Part shown: one piece after another, positions 50,701 to 58,343 of the stretch | How the letters are laid out: every line of letters begins with the position of its first letter | Numbering within the stretch: the first letter of the stretch is position 1 | Source: Pirellula sp. | GTDB taxonomy: Bacteria; Planctomycetota; Planctomycetia; Pirellulales; PNKZ01 | Assembly: GCA_013822735.1 (NCBI GenBank) | Contig: PNKZ01000011.1 | Coordinates: 62,001 to 126,000, forward strand | Length of the DNA: 64,000 nt | Reading direction: 5' to 3' | Notes under the pieces: model-generated | Databases searched by the model: none | The model's input: only the letters and a program-made list of their open reading frames with translations | What the model was told of the DNA's origin: nothing | Program-made: the position numbers and the translations under genes

Positions 50701-53436
50701 GTGAGCCGTAATTCGAATAAACGCCTGCTGTGGACCGGTTTCGTCCTGGCGATGCTCGGCATGATGCCGATGGCGCCGTGTCCGGCGTTTGCCGGCTTAG
50801 CTGCGCTCGACGCTTTTCATGTCGGCCGTTATCACCTGGCCAACGGTCAGCGGGAGCAGGCGTTGGAATCGTTCAACGACGCCTTACGCCTTAATCCGCA
50901 GTTTGTCCAAGCGTACGTCGCTCGCGGTAAGCTCTATGCCGAACTGGGGCAGCACGAAAGCGCCCTCGTCGATCTCAATTTCGCGTTGCGACTCCAACCC
51001 ACTCACGCCGAGGCTTTTGCCTATCGAGGCTACGCGCTGCTTTCCTTGGGGCAGGCCCAGAAGGCCCTGCCGGATCTTGAGATGGCGCTGCGAATTGATC
51101 CTTCTTACGCTCGCGTTCACTTCTTACGCGGCCAAGCGATGCAAATGCTGGGCGACGAACAGGCGGCCGGCGTCAGTATCGCCATGGCGCGACGACTCGA
51201 CCCCACTTTGGATGTTTCACAAGTCATCACGGCGAGTGCCGACGGATCCTTGGCAGACGTTGGAGTTCAGTTGGCGGGCGGCGGTTCCGGCCCGCAACGA
51301 ACGCCCGTCATGAGCGAGTTGATGCCCGTACAACTTGAGTCGAAGCCGTTTGAGCCCCGGTCGCTAGGACGACTCGTGCCGTTTCAGCAACATCCCAATC
51401 TCGCCGATGTCGCTCCTCCGGCCATGTCGCGCGGCTCTGTATTGGCGCCCGCGCTGGCGCACGCGAACATTCGCGAGCAACTTATTCCGCGAAAGCATGC
51501 GGCGAATCGTCCCCGTCCGCTAACTCCGCCGCAAACGGCTTCGGCCGCACCGAAGCTGCCTGACATTACCTCGAAAGTGCCGCTCGACGCGTCGCACGAG
51601 CCGTTGGACCTCGAGCTCTCGGCCAAGCCCATCAGTAAGGTGCCGAACGAAATCAGTGCCGATGCAAAGGTCGCCGACGCGAAACAGACCGACAAAGTCG
51701 CTCTGGAGCCGAAAGCGAAGCTGCAGGACGAGATTGCTCTGAGCATGCCGGACGTCTCCAAGCCGGCTCCTGCGGTTACGGTGAAAGCGATCCCGCAGAC
51801 GGAAGCGACCGAGAAGTTGCCCGCTCCGTTGCCGACGAAGACGACGGAAGCTCCCGTCGCCAAGACAGAACCCAAGACGGAGCCTGCGGAGGAATCGGCT
51901 ATTGCGTCGTCGGAACGAAAAGATCGCCATATTCCGGCATTTGGTCCGCAGATATTCGTCGTTCCGGCCGACGGCGCTGCCGCCGATTCTCGCCAGGCCG
52001 CCGAAGAGCTAGCCGCCAATCTCCCTGCGAGCGCGATTCTCCGCGGTGCGCCGACGGGCGGCCTGATGCTGCCTGAAAAGCCCTCGTCGATCGAAAGTGA
52101 TCGACGATTGCAGGCGGCCGTCGAAGCCGCCCGGCTTAGCGCGGCGTCTGACGATGCGATGGCGATCGTTGAAGATACCGGCGACGTCGAAGAACCTGCG
52201 GTCGCACAAAACGAACCGACGGCCGAACAGTTGGAGCAATCCAAAGCTGCCTATCGCCGCGGCACGCAGCTGGAAGCGGAAGGCAAGACGGCCGAAGCTT
52301 TGGCCGCATATCAAGAAGCCGTTAAGCTGAATCCGAACGACGCCGAGGCCTACTGCCGTCGCGGGCATCTCCTCATGGAAGGCCTGCGAACGGCGGAAGC
52401 ACTGGCCGCGTTCGAGAAAGTCATCGCCGTGGCGCCAGGTCTGTCGAGCGGCTATTTCGGGCGAGCACACGTTCGTTATGTGACGGAACAATATCTCGAA
52501 GCTGTTTACGATTACTCGATCGCCCTTCGGTTCGATGACCAGCATGCCCAAGCGTTTATCGAACGCGGGCATTGCTACGACCTCTTGGGGCGGGTCGCCG
52601 AAGCCAAGGCGGATCGCCGCGCCGCACTCGATCTGGATCCGAGCCTCGCCAAGACGGGTCCGAAGTACGCGATGGGCACGAAAGCCGATGCAATCCCTAC
52701 GGCAGTCATGCCGGGCGCCACGGCCTTTGCCGGCGACATCGAATCGGTCGTGCCCACGACGGCTTCCGACACTTCGTCCAAGCTTGGAAATCAGGCGATT
52801 GCCACCGACGTTGGGGCGAATAAAGAGGTGCACCAGCCGAAGCCGGGCGAATCGGCCTTCGAAAACCTCTTCAACAACGCGAAGCCGCCGGTGGCCGACG
52901 CGCCAGAGGGTGTGTCGACGAGCCCCGACGCTGCGACAAAGATTAGTCCCAACGCAAAAGAGTCCGCGGCCGAAGCCGAGCTCAAGCGATTGAGCGCTGA
53001 GATCTCGGAGTTCCCCGGCGACAAGGATCGCTACTTCCGTCGAGCCCGCGCCTACTGCACGCTGGGCCAGTTGCAAGCGGCATTGGACGATCTCAACACC
53101 TGTCTGCGTTTTGATGCAGCCCATCTTGAAGCAATCAAGCTGCGTGCGGAAGTGCATGCCAAATTGCACAATAGCGCCGCGGCGGCCGCCGACCTTACTA
53201 CCGCGCTCCAGCAATCGCCGGACGACGTGACACTGCTGCTGAATCGCGCAACCTCGTTGGCGGAAAACGGCGACGTCCGCGCCGCGCTCGCCGACCTCGA
53301 TCGGGCCGTCGCACTCGACCCCCGGAATCGTGCGGCTTATCTTGAGCGAAGCCGCATCCACGCCGAACGCGGCGCGTTTACCGAAGCCCAAGCCGATCGC
53401 GATCAAGCGGTTCGTCTCGGCTCTGAGTCGAAGTAA
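50701..53436 (+). CDS. Exported protein with three separate TPR blocks
   Basis: A 911-aa protein starting at GTG 50701. Residues 1-32 are a Sec signal peptide (Arg/Lys, hydrophobic core LLWTGFVLAMLGMM, likely cleavage after AFA). TPR block 1 spans about residues 36-165 (helix pairs such as ALESFNDALRLNPQFVQAYV). TPR block 2 spans about 513-650 (AEALAAYQEAVKLNPNDAEA). Block 3 spans about 758-908 and contains at least three repeats. The blocks are joined by long Ala/Lys/Pro/Glu-rich linkers without visible domains. TPRs bind proteins or peptides, so it may be a periplasmic scaffold. It is divergent from the lipoprotein/Wza operon and may serve the same envelope system, which is inference. No catalytic motif is visible. 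Confidence 0.87.
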   Translation: MSRNSNKRLLWTGFVLAMLGMMPMAPCPAFAGLAALDAFHVGRYHLANGQREQALESFNDALRLNPQFVQAYVARGKLYAELGQHESALVDLNFALRLQPTHAEAFAYRGYALLSLGQAQKALPDLEMALRIDPSYARVHFLRGQAMQMLGDEQAAGVSIAMARRLDPTLDVSQVITASADGSLADVGVQLAGGGSGPQRTPVMSELMPVQLESKPFEPRSLGRLVPFQQHPNLADVAPPAMSRGSVLAPALAHANIREQLIPRKHAANRPRPLTPPQTASAAPKLPDITSKVPLDASHEPLDLELSAKPISKVPNEISADAKVADAKQTDKVALEPKAKLQDEIALSMPDVSKPAPAVTVKAIPQTEATEKLPAPLPTKTTEAPVAKTEPKTEPAEESAIASSERKDRHIPAFGPQIFVVPADGAAADSRQAAEELAANLPASAILRGAPTGGLMLPEKPSSIESDRRLQAAVEAARLSAASDDAMAIVEDTGDVEEPAVAQNEPTAEQLEQSKAAYRRGTQLEAEGKTAEALAAYQEAVKLNPNDAEAYCRRGHLLMEGLRTAEALAAFEKVIAVAPGLSSGYFGRAHVRYVTEQYLEAVYDYSIALRFDDQHAQAFIERGHCYDLLGRVAEAKADRRAALDLDPSLAKTGPKYAMGTKADAIPTAVMPGATAFAGDIESVVPTTASDTSSKLGNQAIATDVGANKEVHQPKPGESAFENLFNNAKPPVADAPEGVSTSPDAATKISPNAKESAAEAELKRLSAEISEFPGDKDRYFRRARAYCTLGQLQAALDDLNTCLRFDAAHLEAIKLRAEVHAKLHNSAAAAADLTTALQQSPDDVTLLLNRATSLAENGDVRAALADLDRAVALDPRNRAAYLERSRIHAERGAFTEAQADRDQAVRLGSESK

Positions 53437-53558
53437 CTCGGCGAACGCAGGCGACATGGGGCTATCTCAGGCCCGTACCGGCGGCGCTCCACTGCCAAAG
53501 GTTCGCCGTTGCACCGAGATTTAGGCGAATTCAGTCGAAATCGCGGCCGGCGACACCT

Positions 53559-53586
53559 TTGCGACCGGTGGCTCGGTTGCTAATCT
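53559..53586 (+). promoter_or_regulatory. Sigma70-type promoter of the small basic protein gene
   Basis: TTGCGA, a 16-bp spacer and TAATCT, preceded by TGC (extended -10). A transcript would start near 53593, leaving a leader of about 40 nt before ATG 53634. Confidence 0.5.
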
Positions 53587-53619
53587 AGAGGATTCGATAG
53601 GTTTCCCGATTCTTGTTTG

Positions 53620-53624
53620 AGGAG
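53620..53624 (+). promoter_or_regulatory. Strong ribosome-binding site of the 32-aa gene
   Basis: AGGAG within GAGGAG lies 9 nt before ATG 53634. It is among the best Shine-Dalgarno sequences in the window and supports translation of this very short frame. Confidence 0.65.
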
Positions 53625-53633
53625 TAGGTAGTC

Positions 53634-53732
53634 ATGACGAAGCCCCACCGCGGCTTGAAGAAAGCCAATCACGGTTCCCGCCCCGCCAACGCCAAGGCTC
53701 GCCGCGCCAAGCGTCGTGTCGTCCGCACTTAA
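53634..53732 (+). CDS. 32-aa extremely basic protein, probably RNA- or ribosome-associated
   Basis: A short frame of 32 codons beginning MTKPHRGLKKANHGSRPANA and continuing with alternating Lys/Arg/Ala to the end RVVRT. By count it has 7 Arg, 5 Lys, 2 His and no acidic residue. It has its own extended -10 promoter and a strong ribosome-binding site, and the frame ends cleanly in TAA. Length and composition resemble small ribosomal proteins such as bL34 or bL36, but the sequence is not one I can assign, and it lacks the Cys/His pattern of bL36. Binding to rRNA or another nucleic acid is inference from charge. Next come a FabZ-like gene and trmB on the same strand, 161 bp further on, past a hairpin. 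Confidence 0.72.
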   Translation: MTKPHRGLKKANHGSRPANAKARRAKRRVVRT

Positions 53733-53803
53733 TTGCGGCGCGTAGTCGGGAGTGGAAAGTCGAACCACTTCGGCGACGAGTCGCGTCGTCGAACTAACGG
53801 CGA

Positions 53804-53893: not shown

Positions 53894-54409
53894 ATGGCTA
53901 AGTCGAAAGAACTCCTCCTCGAGTTCCACGAATTTGATCCGAATCACGTCGTTGCCGATATAGAAGCGATCCGTCGCTGTAATCCGCAACGTTATGAAAT
54001 GGAGCAGCTCACGGCGGTTTGCTTCGAAGATTCCGAGCGCCATATCACGGTCGGCTACAAAGACCTTGCCCAAGACGAGTTTTGGGTCCGCGGACACATG
54101 CCCGGCATGCCGCTGCTGCCGGGCGTCATCATGTGTGAAGTTGCCGCGCAGCTATGCAGCTTTTACTCGCAACGCCACGGGCTCCACGGCGAAAACGCGA
54201 TCCTCGGTTTCGGCGGCATGAACGATATCCGCTTCCGCGGCGTCGTGCGCCCCGGCGATCGGCTTCTGGTCGTGTCGAAGCTGATTCGCGTGCGTAAAGG
54301 CGTCATGGTCACGAGCCAGTTTCAAGCGTTTGTCGGCCAGACCTTGGTCGGCGAAGGCGAAATTGTCGGCGTTGCCTTGCCGAAGGATGCTGCAACGCGC
54401 AGCAACTAA
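53894..54409 (+). CDS. FabZ-like 3-hydroxyacyl-ACP dehydratase (hot-dog fold)
   Basis: A 171-aa protein. The signature GHMPGMPLLPGVIMCEVAAQ (residues 67-86) matches the FabA/FabZ motif H-x-P-x-x-P-x-x-P-G followed by E-x-x-A-Q, with catalytic His68 and Glu82 both present. A later GFGGMNDIRFRGVVRPGDRL segment (about 105-124) is the typical R-F-x-x-x-V-x-P-G-D strand. The family dehydrates (3R)-hydroxyacyl-ACP to trans-2-enoyl-ACP in type II fatty acid synthesis in the cytoplasm. FabZ is usually about 145-150 aa; the extra residues are at the N-terminus. Met at HMP replaces the usual Phe. It could be the main FabZ or a paralogue used for another acyl chain. It is followed 18 bp later by trmB, probably the same transcript. 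Confidence 0.85.
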   Translation: MAKSKELLLEFHEFDPNHVVADIEAIRRCNPQRYEMEQLTAVCFEDSERHITVGYKDLAQDEFWVRGHMPGMPLLPGVIMCEVAAQLCSFYSQRHGLHGENAILGFGGMNDIRFRGVVRPGDRLLVVSKLIRVRKGVMVTSQFQAFVGQTLVGEGEIVGVALPKDAATRSN

Positions 54410-54427: not shown

Positions 54428-55072
54428 ATGGCCCGCCGCGCGCTGCGTAAGCTCAATCCGACGATCGATCTCGCACGGCATCTGTACACGCTGGAGCAAC
54501 TCTCCGCGCCGCTTGATTGCGCGACTCTGTTCGGTCGTGACGCTCCGCTCGAAGTCGAGATGGGGAGCGGCAAGGGGCTTTTTATCTCCAGCGCCGCTGC
54601 GGCGCGGCCCGGTCATAACTTTCTCGGTGTGGAGATCGCCCGGAAGTACGCGGCGCACTGCGCCGCTCGTCTCATACGAGCCGGCCTGACGAATGCCGCC
54701 ATGGTTGCAGGCGACGGACTACGGTTGTTTCGCGAGTTCTTACCGACATCGGGCGTCGATGCGGTGCATGTCTACTTCCCCGATCCCTGGTGGAAGGCCC
54801 GGCATCGCAAACGTCGAGTTCTTAACGAAGCCTTTCTGGTCGACGTCGTCCGCGTGTTGAAGCCGGGCGGCATTTTGCACTTCTGGACCGATGTTGAGGA
54901 ATACTTCCTCTCGTCGCTGGAACTGATTGCCCAGGTTTCGCAACTCGAAGGCCCGCTGCCGGTGCCCGAGCATACGCCGGAGCACGACCTCGACTATCGC
55001 ACTCACTTCGAGCGGCGCAAGCGCAAGGACAATCTGCCGATCTATCGGAGCGAGTTCCGTCGCCGCGATTGA
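54428..55072 (+). CDS. trmB: tRNA (guanine-N7-)-methyltransferase
   Basis: A 214-aa protein that would transfer a methyl group from S-adenosylmethionine to N7 of G46 in the tRNA variable loop. The SAM-binding motif is LEVEMGSGKGLF (41-52), with an acidic residue in FLGVEIARK (65-73). The substrate signature is VYFPDPWWKARHRKRR (115-130), matching FPDPWPKKRHxKRR. Then come LKPGGILHFWTDVEEY (144-159) and the C-terminal THFERR, corresponding to the family's T-x-F-E-R-R. Length fits the family. The start ATG 54428 lies 18 bp after the FabZ-like gene. The extra basic stretch RRKRKDN near the end is unusual but consistent with RNA binding. Confidence 0.93.
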   Translation: MARRALRKLNPTIDLARHLYTLEQLSAPLDCATLFGRDAPLEVEMGSGKGLFISSAAAARPGHNFLGVEIARKYAAHCAARLIRAGLTNAAMVAGDGLRLFREFLPTSGVDAVHVYFPDPWWKARHRKRRVLNEAFLVDVVRVLKPGGILHFWTDVEEYFLSSLELIAQVSQLEGPLPVPEHTPEHDLDYRTHFERRKRKDNLPIYRSEFRRRD

Positions 55073-55145
55073 TTCCGTTGCGCCATTTCGGGTAAATCGT
55101 TGCCTCGGGCGTGAGCCGCCTACTAAGATAGGGGGCGTCCCACCT

Positions 55146-55149
55146 GGAG
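55146..55149 (+). promoter_or_regulatory. Ribosome-binding site of the PSCyt1/DUF1549 gene
   Basis: GGAG lies 8 nt before ATG 55158. The frame is open another 230 bp upstream into trmB, but only this ATG gives a ribosome-binding site and an N-terminal signal peptide. Confidence 0.65.
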
Positions 55150-55157
55150 CCCGACGC

Positions 55158-58100
55158 ATGCCCCCCCTGCTCCGTTTCTGCACCGCCATTGTTGTAGCCA
55201 TTTGCATCGTGTCGTTTGCTGCGCCTCCCGCCCGCGCCGCAATACCGTTGGGATACAACGCCGACGTTCGCGGGATTCTCTCCGACAAGTGCTTCCGCTG
55301 TCACGGGCCTGATTCCGCGGCGCGCCAGGGGGACTTGCGCTTAGATCAACGTGCCGACGCCGTGGCCGATCGTGGCGGGACCTCGGCTATCGTTCCCGGC
55401 GACCCGAAGCGGAGCGAGGCGTATTTAAGAATCGTCTCTCAGGAGGCGGGCGAGCGCATGCCGCCGGATGATTCCGGGCTTTCGCTATCGGAGAAAGAAC
55501 GCGAATTGATTCGGCAATGGATCGCGGAGGGCGCGAATTATGAATCGCATTGGTCGTTCGTCCCGCCGGTTCGACCGGAACTTCCGAAGCCTGTCGGCGG
55601 AGCGGCTGCCGCGCATCCCATCGATCGATTCATCGACGAGCGCCTGGCAAAATTAGGCGTTTCGGCGAATCCGGAAGCCGATCCCGCCGTGCTTTGTCGC
55701 AGGCTGCATCTCGACCTCACCGGGCTGCCGCCGACGATCGCGGAGGTGGAACAATTTCTCGCCGCATATGCATCGACCAAGTCGGCGGCAGCACGCGAAA
55801 AGGCATATGTCGATCTCGTTGATCGGTTACTTGCGTCGCCGCGCTACGCCGAACAAATGGCGTCCCCTTGGCTCGATGCCGCTCGCTACGCCGATACCAA
55901 CGGTTACCAAACCGACGGACCGCGTCGGATGTGGCGTTGGCGCGACTGGGTTATTGACGCGTTTCGACGAAATCAGCCGTTCGACGAGTTCACGGTCGAG
56001 CAGCTTGCCGGCGATTTGCTTCCGCAGCCGACGCTTGAGCAGCAGATCGCCACCGGCTTTCATCGCAATCATCGGATGAACGCCGAAGGGGGCATCATTC
56101 CCGAAGAGTATCTGGCCGAATATGTCGCCGATCGCGTGGAGACGACAGGAACGGTTTGGCTCGGGCTGACCATCGGTTGTGCGCGTTGTCACGACCATAA
56201 ATACGATCCGATCACGCAGCGCGAGTTTTATCAGCTTTTCGATTTCTTCAACCGCGTTCCCGAGCCCGGCAAGGCGCTGCGCGACGACAACTCGCCGCCG
56301 ACGATCTTGGCGCCGACCGACGAGCAGCAGGTTCCACTGGCAAAGCTCGAACAAGAAGTTGAGCAAGCACGAAAAGTGTGGGTTGCCGCCCAGCCGGAAG
56401 TGGAACGCAGTGTGGCGGTATGGGCGGCGCAGGCCACGCGCGACCCGGCGCGATGGACGATCACCGATGGTTTGACGCTCCGAATCCCCTTCGATGAAAC
56501 TCTGCCTTCGATCAAGGAATGGAAGCCGATTGACAACGGCGGCGGTCGTCCGAGTTACGCTCCCGGACCGTTTACGTTGGCGCTCCAACTCGACGGTCGC
56601 GGTTCGTTCGAGTTCGACCACGTTCCGAAGTTTGATAGCGAGGCCACGTTTTCGGCCGCCGTATGGCTCCGTCCGCCGGCAAAGGCAAACGCCACCGTTT
56701 ACGCGGCCATGGATGATGCGATGTCGCAAAACGGGATTGAGTTGCGCTTGGTCGACGGGCGGCCGCAGGTCGTACTCTCGGGGCGCATCCTCGACGACGT
56801 TGTTCGCGTAGAAGCGGAATCGCCGCTGCCCGCCGACTTGTGGAGCCATGTTGCTTGGACGTACGACGGCACGCGCGATGCCGCCGGCGTGCACTTTTTT
56901 ATAGACGGTCGGCCGGTAAAGACGCGCGTGGTGACCGATACGCTCAGCAACAAGTTCAAGACGACGCGGCCGCTGGTCGTCGGTGCGGGAGGAACTTCGA
57001 GCAACTACCAAGGTCGCATTGCCGATCTCCGGTTCTACGATCGAGCGCTTTCCGCAGATGAAGCGGCGATTGTTTATTGCGATCTCTCGATCCGAGCGAT
57101 GGCGCAAGAGTACGGACGCAGTATCGACCCTGCCGTCGGCATCAAGCTGCGAGAGTATTTTCTGCGGTTCGCGGCCCCCGAAGGGATGCGACGGAAACGC
57201 GACGCCGAAGCGCTCGCGGAAGAGGCGATCCGAAAGTTGCGGCGCGAATTGCCCACGACGATGGTTATGCGCGACGTGCCCGGTTTGCGAACGACGCATG
57301 TGCTGACACGCGGCGAATACGACAAGCCGGGCGAAGCGGTTAAAGCCGGCATTCCCGCAGCATTTGGGCTTCCGCTTCCGAGCCAAGTGCCGCCGAATCG
57401 CCTCGCGTTGGCTCGTTGGTTGGTCGATCGTCGGCATCCTCTTACGGCCCGGGTTGCCGTCAATCGATTTTGGCAGCAGTTGTTCGGCGTCGGCTTGGTC
57501 AAGACGGTTGACGACTTCGGCGTACAAGGGGAATGGCCGATCTATCACGAACTACTCGATTGGTTGGCCGTCGAATTTATGGAGGCCGGCGACGGCTGGG
57601 ACGTCAAACACCTAGTCAAACAGATCGTCACGAGTGCCGCCTATCGACGATCGTCACAAATTCAAGGGGACGCGGGGGTGCGCGATCCGGAGAACCGATT
57701 GCTGGCCCGTGGCGCCAGGTTCCGGCTTTCCGCCGAAGCTGTCCGCGACTCGGCGCTGGCCGTCTCCGGATTGTTGACGGAGCGCATCGGTGGGCCGTCG
57801 ATCAAGCCGTATCAACCTGCCGGACTCTGGGAAGAACTCGCGACGGGGGTCGTGAAGTACGAACAAGACCATGGCGAGGATCTCTATCGCCGCAGTTTGT
57901 ATATCTACCGCAAACGAACGGTGTCGGTGCCGATGCTTTCTACCTTCGATGCGGCGGCGCGCGAAACTTGCGTGGTGCGCCAATCGCGAACCAATACGCC
58001 GCTGCAGTCGTTGAATCTTTTGAATGATGTGACGTTCGTCGAAGCCTCGCGTGCGCTTGGGGCCCGGATGATGCGAGAATCGTCGAGCGATCCTGCGGTC

Positions 58101-58343
58101 CGAATCGCGCACGGGTTTCAGCTGGTGACGGCCCGAGGTCCGACGCCGGACGAACTACGCGTGCTCGTCGCCGGTTTCGAGCGTCGCTTTGCCCAATACC
58201 AGGCAGATCCCGCGTCCGCTGTGAAGCTGGTGGCGATCGGAGAAAGCCCGGTCGACAAATCGCTCGACGTCGTCTTGTGGGCCGTCTACACGACCGTCGG
58301 CAATGTGTTGCTCAATCTCGATGAGTTCGTCACCCGCGAGTAA
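55158..58343 (+). CDS. Exported PSCyt1-DUF1549-LamG-DUF1553 protein (planctomycete cytochrome-like)
   Basis: A 1,061-aa protein starting at ATG 55158. Residues 1-28 are a Sec signal (core [15 protein letters not shown], cleavage after ARA). The PSCyt1 c-type heme motif CFRCH (Cys45, Cys48, His49) follows, with RMPP further on as a possible Met ligand. DUF1549 spans about 150-370 and carries a second Cxx[14 protein letters not shown] (341-345). A laminin-G/concanavalin-like domain lies at about 478-638 ([54 protein letters not shown]). DUF1553 fills the C-terminus ([44 protein letters not shown]). These proteins are abundant and lineage-specific in Planctomycetota. A role in periplasmic polysaccharide breakdown or redox chemistry is proposed but unproven. 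The DUF1501 gene starts at or next to its stop codon, the usual partner arrangement. Confidence 0.93.

Follow-up and report, generated by a model that had tools for sequence, protein, structure and literature searches.

The available text of PMC5876184 describes the ribosomal protein bL37 as confined to actinobacteria, and that of PMC10618245 states that it has so far been found only in mycobacterial ribosomes. The M. smegmatis protein fills a pocket formed by H39, H40, the H41/H42 joint, H72 and H89 (PMC5876184), and C. acnes bL37 also touches the tip of the 5S rRNA (PMC10085706). Both studies proposed that bL37 affects or stabilises the surroundings of H89, close to the peptidyl-transferase centre (PMC5876184, PMC10085706). 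With regard to its origin, bL37 has been proposed to have split from a long uL30 (PMC10618245). Two further occupants of the bL37 pocket have been described, namely the N-terminal extension of Borrelia uL30 (PMC10618245), whereas planctomycetes have no detectable uL30, and the Coxiella protein CLaSP, which according to the available text has no substantial sequence identity with bL37 (PMC13392368); we liken both to bL37 from their published descriptions. Our literature search found no paper on bL37 in planctomycetes and no planctomycete ribosome structure or proteomics. Here, we describe a planctomycete bL37 gene that is ordinary in itself and of some interest with regard to the evolution of bL37.

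A 32-codon gene encoding planctomycete bL37

The gene lies in a window of 64,000 nucleotides of Pirellula sp. DNA, by which we mean the whole stretch analysed, between the gene for a 921-aa TPR protein and genes for a FabA/FabZ-like dehydratase and then TrmB, which both follow downstream on the same strand. The gene, its core and these two neighbours are located as follows:

53634..53732, + strand: bL37 gene, 32 aa, ATG to TAA; NF047429 match, conserved frame
53661..53684, + strand: codons 10-17, KANHGSRP, conserved core common to mycobacterial bL37 and mL102 (conservation among 49 peptides, PDB chain alignments)
53894..54409, + strand: FabA/FabZ-like dehydratase, 171 aa; PF07977 at 71.5 bits, above cut-off, but below the fabZ equivalog cut-off
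54428..55072, + strand: trmB, tRNA (guanosine(46)-N7)-methyltransferase; TIGR00091 at 131.2 bits, cut-off 112.65

The product of the open reading frame is MTKPHRGLKKANHGSRPANAKARRAKRRVVRT, which contains seven arginine and five lysine residues and neither aspartate nor glutamate, and the frame is closed by a TAA codon ending at 53732. The preliminary description, made from the sequence alone, had reported 32 residues with 12 Lys/Arg and no acidic residue, a clean stop and a position ahead of fabZ-like and trmB genes, all of which is borne out by the open reading frame and by the PF07977 and TIGR00091 matches above cut-off. No signal peptide is apparent on reading the protein by eye.

Over its full length (positions 1-32 of 32), the protein matches the NCBIfam model NF047429 ('ribo_Plancto_bL37, 50S ribosomal protein bL37'), an equivalog model of length 32, with 60 bits against a cut-off of 40. 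We found no difference between the protein and this family, of which it is a plain member, and the model also matches all 49 distinct planctomycete peptides that we collected. The preliminary description had thus rightly sensed the make-up of a ribosomal peptide, while its statement that no known small ribosomal protein matches does not hold, as the peptide is already catalogued as planctomycete bL37. Its remark that most automatic annotation drops such genes is probably outdated for the NCBI pipeline, which uses the NCBIfam library. Neither Pfam (E <= 1), including the Ribosomal_L30 domain PF00327, nor PHROGs provided a family for the peptide, and a tblastn search of a plasmid collection gave no match. 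As regards bS22 (AURKAIP1/COX24-like), which these searches would reveal if the libraries contain a model of that family, NCBIfam returned only NF047429 and Pfam nothing at E <= 1. The former orphan peptide can now be named, assigned to a family and given a probable place in the ribosome.

Conservation and purifying selection

bL37 was found in 51 of 57 related genomes, the window's own included, and in all 16 genomes of the window's class within a wider phylum sample. The own genome holds one good match; a second, weak one (L002; E 0.127, with an internal stop) was regarded as a chance hit and excluded from every count, which leaves 49 distinct peptides from 56 loci. A profile search of the six genomes lacking bL37 also gave no match at E <= 0.01. 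In five of these, the neighbouring FabZ-like gene is missing too (at E <= 1e-20), and in the sixth the contig ends 58 bases past the FabZ-like match, short of the expected place of bL37, so that the six misses reflect gaps in the assemblies and none of them is evidence of loss. The FabZ-like gene lies downstream of bL37 in 28 of 30 order-level loci and within reach in none of the 26 more distant ones. TrmB is encoded within reach in 13 of the 30 order-level loci, each of which holds at most 1.5 kb of downstream sequence.

Short frames can be open by chance, and here the opposite strand is partly open too, with a 62-aa ORF at 53580-53768. Across the 30 order-level loci, the bL37 frame is never interrupted by a stop codon, whereas the other five frames contain stops in 3 to 24 of the loci, and pN/pS, pooled over the loci, is 0.229 for the coding frame compared to 0.451-1.997 for the others. 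This frame test rules out the opposite-strand ORF and the alternative frames. Comparisons with three congeners revealed 17, 20 and 23 nucleotide differences, which lead to only 4, 3 and 4 amino-acid changes, respectively, and so few changes were reached in none of 20,000 random placements for any of the pairs. Sequence conservation sets in with the ATG and does not continue past the stop codon. The 53634-53732 ORF is a real gene, its frame, and only this frame, is under purifying selection, and the probability of a chance ORF is negligible. Two findings named in the preliminary description as speaking against a gene, a frame not conserved in related genomes and a lack of codon-level selection, are contradicted by these counts.

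Residues N12, G14, R16 and P17 are invariant among the 49 distinct peptides, and K9, K10, A11 and H13 are present in at least 90% of them, although this conservation of the core is partly circular as the peptides were gathered by searches that favour it.

Relation to actinobacterial bL37

With actinobacterial bL37 (NF047428; M. smegmatis UniProt A0QTP4 according to PMC5876184; M. tuberculosis chain 7kgb_v), the planctomycete peptides have in common the KANHGxRP core (KANHGKRP in the mycobacterial chains), a strongly basic composition and a very short length. The mycobacterial bL37 model NF047428 matches 35 of the 49 distinct peptides at E <= 1; the window protein itself has no match at this threshold, and one planctomycete relative scores 16.5 bits, the cut-off of the model being 30 bits. 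Searching the PDB with a profile of the 49 peptides, we found the mycobacterial bL37 chains 7kgb_v (E 0.0081), 5o60_3 (E 0.32) and 6dzi_3 (E 0.63), in a list that also contains unrelated phospholipase chains at E 0.5-1.6. The alignments of 7kgb and 5o60 to the profile run through KANHGKRP, and a chain named only 'peptide' (7sfr_v, E 0.019) has an identical core. The sequence of the window protein alone found no bL37 chain at E <= 10; its only hits were the mitoribosomal protein mL102 (E 0.041) and a WASP chain, which is unrelated. When preselected mycobacterial segments were compared with composition-matched shuffles, the M. tuberculosis segment scored 25.6 bits against 17.8 bits for the best shuffle, and for neither this nor the M. 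smegmatis segment did any of 5000 shuffles reach the score. The link to actinobacterial bL37 needs a profile and rests mostly on about eight residues.

The two forms differ in their layout. Actinobacterial bL37 has 24 residues compared to 32 in the planctomycete form, and residues 6-17 of one planctomycete relative align to positions 11-22 of the 24 positions of the mycobacterial model, which places about five more residues before the core and two after it in the mycobacterial protein, versus 15 after it here. Mycobacterial bL37 has an N-terminal helix and carries the core at its C-terminal end. In the planctomycete protein, a short arm lies N-terminal to the core, and a basic tail of 15 residues follows RP. 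In a model of the isolated chain, residues 20-30 form a helix (mean pLDDT 74.9, pTM 0.31). This predicted basic helix would extend past the end of the 24-residue actinobacterial protein.

One might suppose that the planctomycete peptide is ribosomal but acquired a short RNA-binding motif by convergence, and that it binds elsewhere or by a different geometry. The weak pairwise similarity to actinobacterial bL37 outside the core would fit with this, as would the order of elements, an N-terminal helix followed by a loop in the actinobacterial protein (PMC5876184) and a longer modelled helix after the loop here. In addition, a dissimilar Coxiella peptide lies in the same cleft (PMC13392368), suggesting that independent origins of small peptides are possible at this site. 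Set against this, KANHG and RP occur at equal spacing, the window protein agrees with the mycobacterial chains at seven of the eight core residues, and the protein name chosen by NCBI's curators is the same for NF047428 and NF047429. We consider convergence unlikely.

Proposed role in the 50S subunit

We propose that the product of the gene is very probably a small structural component of the 50S subunit, planctomycete bL37, whose KKANHGxRP core occupies a 23S rRNA pocket and braces H89. We infer by homology that the protein binds the ribosome, lies in this pocket and braces H89, assigning it the actinobacterial seat because the core is shared. The core would sit beneath the tip of the 5S rRNA, in the pocket made up of H39, H40, the H41/H42 junction, H72 and H89, where the basic side chains would neutralise the packed phosphates. 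Bound in this way, bL37 would brace H89, the helix leading into the peptidyl-transferase centre. The predicted C-terminal helix would then have to reach rRNA or protein that is untouched by actinobacterial bL37.

A basic composition is also what a non-ribosomal nucleic-acid-binding or antimicrobial peptide would have, and C. acnes bL37 inhibits the growth of staphylococci in disc assays (PMC10085706). The authors of that study located bL37 inside the ribosome, and the peptide described here carries the conserved bL37 core, has no apparent signal peptide, gives a single good match in its genome and is conserved across the order, all of which makes a non-ribosomal function very unlikely.

Distribution in the phylum and absence of detectable uL30

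In a profile search of 246 genomes of the phylum, 74 gave a match at E <= 0.01 and 64, as counted by hand, at E < 1e-5, all 16 genomes of the window's class being among the latter. As the remaining 172 genomes are without a match at E <= 0.01, bL37 is not universal in the phylum. The NF047429 model matches 103 of the 246 genomes at E <= 0.1 but only 20 above its cut-off, suggesting that many of the weaker matches are due to chance or divergent. Among the best 80 of 292 matches in a wider contig scan, we recognised no title as that of a non-planctomycete organism.

uL30 (PF00327) was not detected in the window's own genome at E <= 1, and none of the 246 phylum genomes has a match above cut-off compared to 13 of 14 controls, among them the actinobacterium Corynebacterium glutamicum, which, unlike the planctomycetes, keeps uL30. 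Planctomycetes therefore carry bL37 without detectable uL30. The available text of PMC3353972 does not name planctomycetes among the losses of L30. These results place bL37 in the sampled members of a planctomycete class and also outside it, in genomes where uL30 was not detected. One point beyond the catalogue entry is the basic C-terminal tail of planctomycete bL37, which the mycobacterial protein lacks, in a phylum without uL30 above cut-off. Two possible correlates of bL37 were discarded: uL30 is uninformative within the phylum as it is missing throughout, and the length of the 5S rRNA, judged by eye, overlaps between the bearers inspected (about 108-110 bases) and genomes without a match (about 105-116 bases).

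Mitoribosomal mL102 and mL184

The profile finds its best PDB match in mL102, a protein of the Tetrahymena mitoribosome (6z1p_AQ, E 3.3e-8), and a 26-aa mL102 segment matches NF047429 with an E value of 1.7e-5 and 25.1 bits, below the cut-off of 40. In mL102, KKANHGARP is followed by a basic C-terminal segment, a layout as in planctomycetes, and judged by these alignments the bL37 core occurs in this protein, which likewise goes beyond the catalogue entry. mL102 is a mitochondrial protein of 109 aa from a ribosome without 5S rRNA, and the passages available on it do not relate it to bL37. Two Toxoplasma proteins (PDB entries 9g6k and 9i05, assigned to this species in the available texts) were also found, mL184 with an E value of 0.09 and mL102 with 4.9 using the profile, and 0.012 and 0.19, respectively, using the Tetrahymena segment as query; the margin of the Toxoplasma segment over shuffles is thin (20.4 versus 19.8 bits). 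Possibly, the alveolate mL102/mL184 proteins (6z1p_AQ, 9g6k_UI, 9i05_AH) are unrecognised homologues of bL37. The C-terminus of Tetrahymena mL102 is reported, in the available text, to run along H89 towards the A site, a position that would be compatible with the bL37 pocket. A literature search, with most subscription journals outside its scope, found no paper linking mL102 or mL184 to bL37.

We tentatively consider, as a possibility that we would not favour at present, that bL37 is old rather than an actinobacterial invention and that its planctomycete form, with the basic C-terminal tail, has a common origin and a common layout with alveolate mL102 and T. gondii mL184. An ancestral bL37 would then have existed near the bacterial root or been passed to the mitochondrial lineage, and in planctomycetes, without uL30, the extra tail might partly fill the niche of uL30 or reach along H89 to the A site. 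If true, this would contradict the proposal, as given in the available text of PMC10618245, that bL37 split from uL30; mL102 would need renaming, and a single ancient peptide would have come to occupy the pocket beside the peptidyl-transferase centre in several lineages. The further interest of the finding is modest and evolutionary.

Expression signals and other frames in the window

Two putative expression signals precede the gene:

53559..53586, + strand: putative promoter, TTGCGA (53559-53564), 16-nt spacer ending in TGC, TAATCT (53581-53586); spacing and TGN kept in congeners
53619..53624, + strand: ribosome-binding site GAGGAG, 9 nt before the ATG, read from the sequence

The GAGGAG site noted in the preliminary description is present, and 45 of 56 homologous loci carry a Shine-Dalgarno-like tetramer ahead of the start codon, compared to 1039 of 5600 random positions. 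The extended -10 promoter, which had also been noted, fared less clearly. As read by eye from the alignment, TTGCGA, the 16-nt spacer ending in TGN and TANNNT lie at unchanged distances in three of the four congeneric genomes, counting that of the window, while the fourth (G003) differs; a scan with a generic sigma-70 consensus found no promoter. The pattern occurs once in the window against 0.02 expected occurrences, having been derived from the site itself. As its elements keep their spacing in three of the four congeners, an extended -10 promoter at 53559-53586 is plausible but unproven.

NCBIfam and Pfam matches revealed no ribosomal-protein gene adjoining bL37. Opposite the TPR gene lies a 482-aa open frame (52009-53457, - strand), which is probably a shadow ORF due to the GC-rich composition of the coding sequence. 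A 1138-aa frame (54927-58343, + strand) has its first listed start inside trmB and only a weak cytochrome-type match; its true start probably lies downstream of 55072. Further upstream, a 7841-aa ORF (23378-46903, + strand) was scanned in two pieces, each of which gave matches to PF12951, the autotransporter-type PATR repeat.
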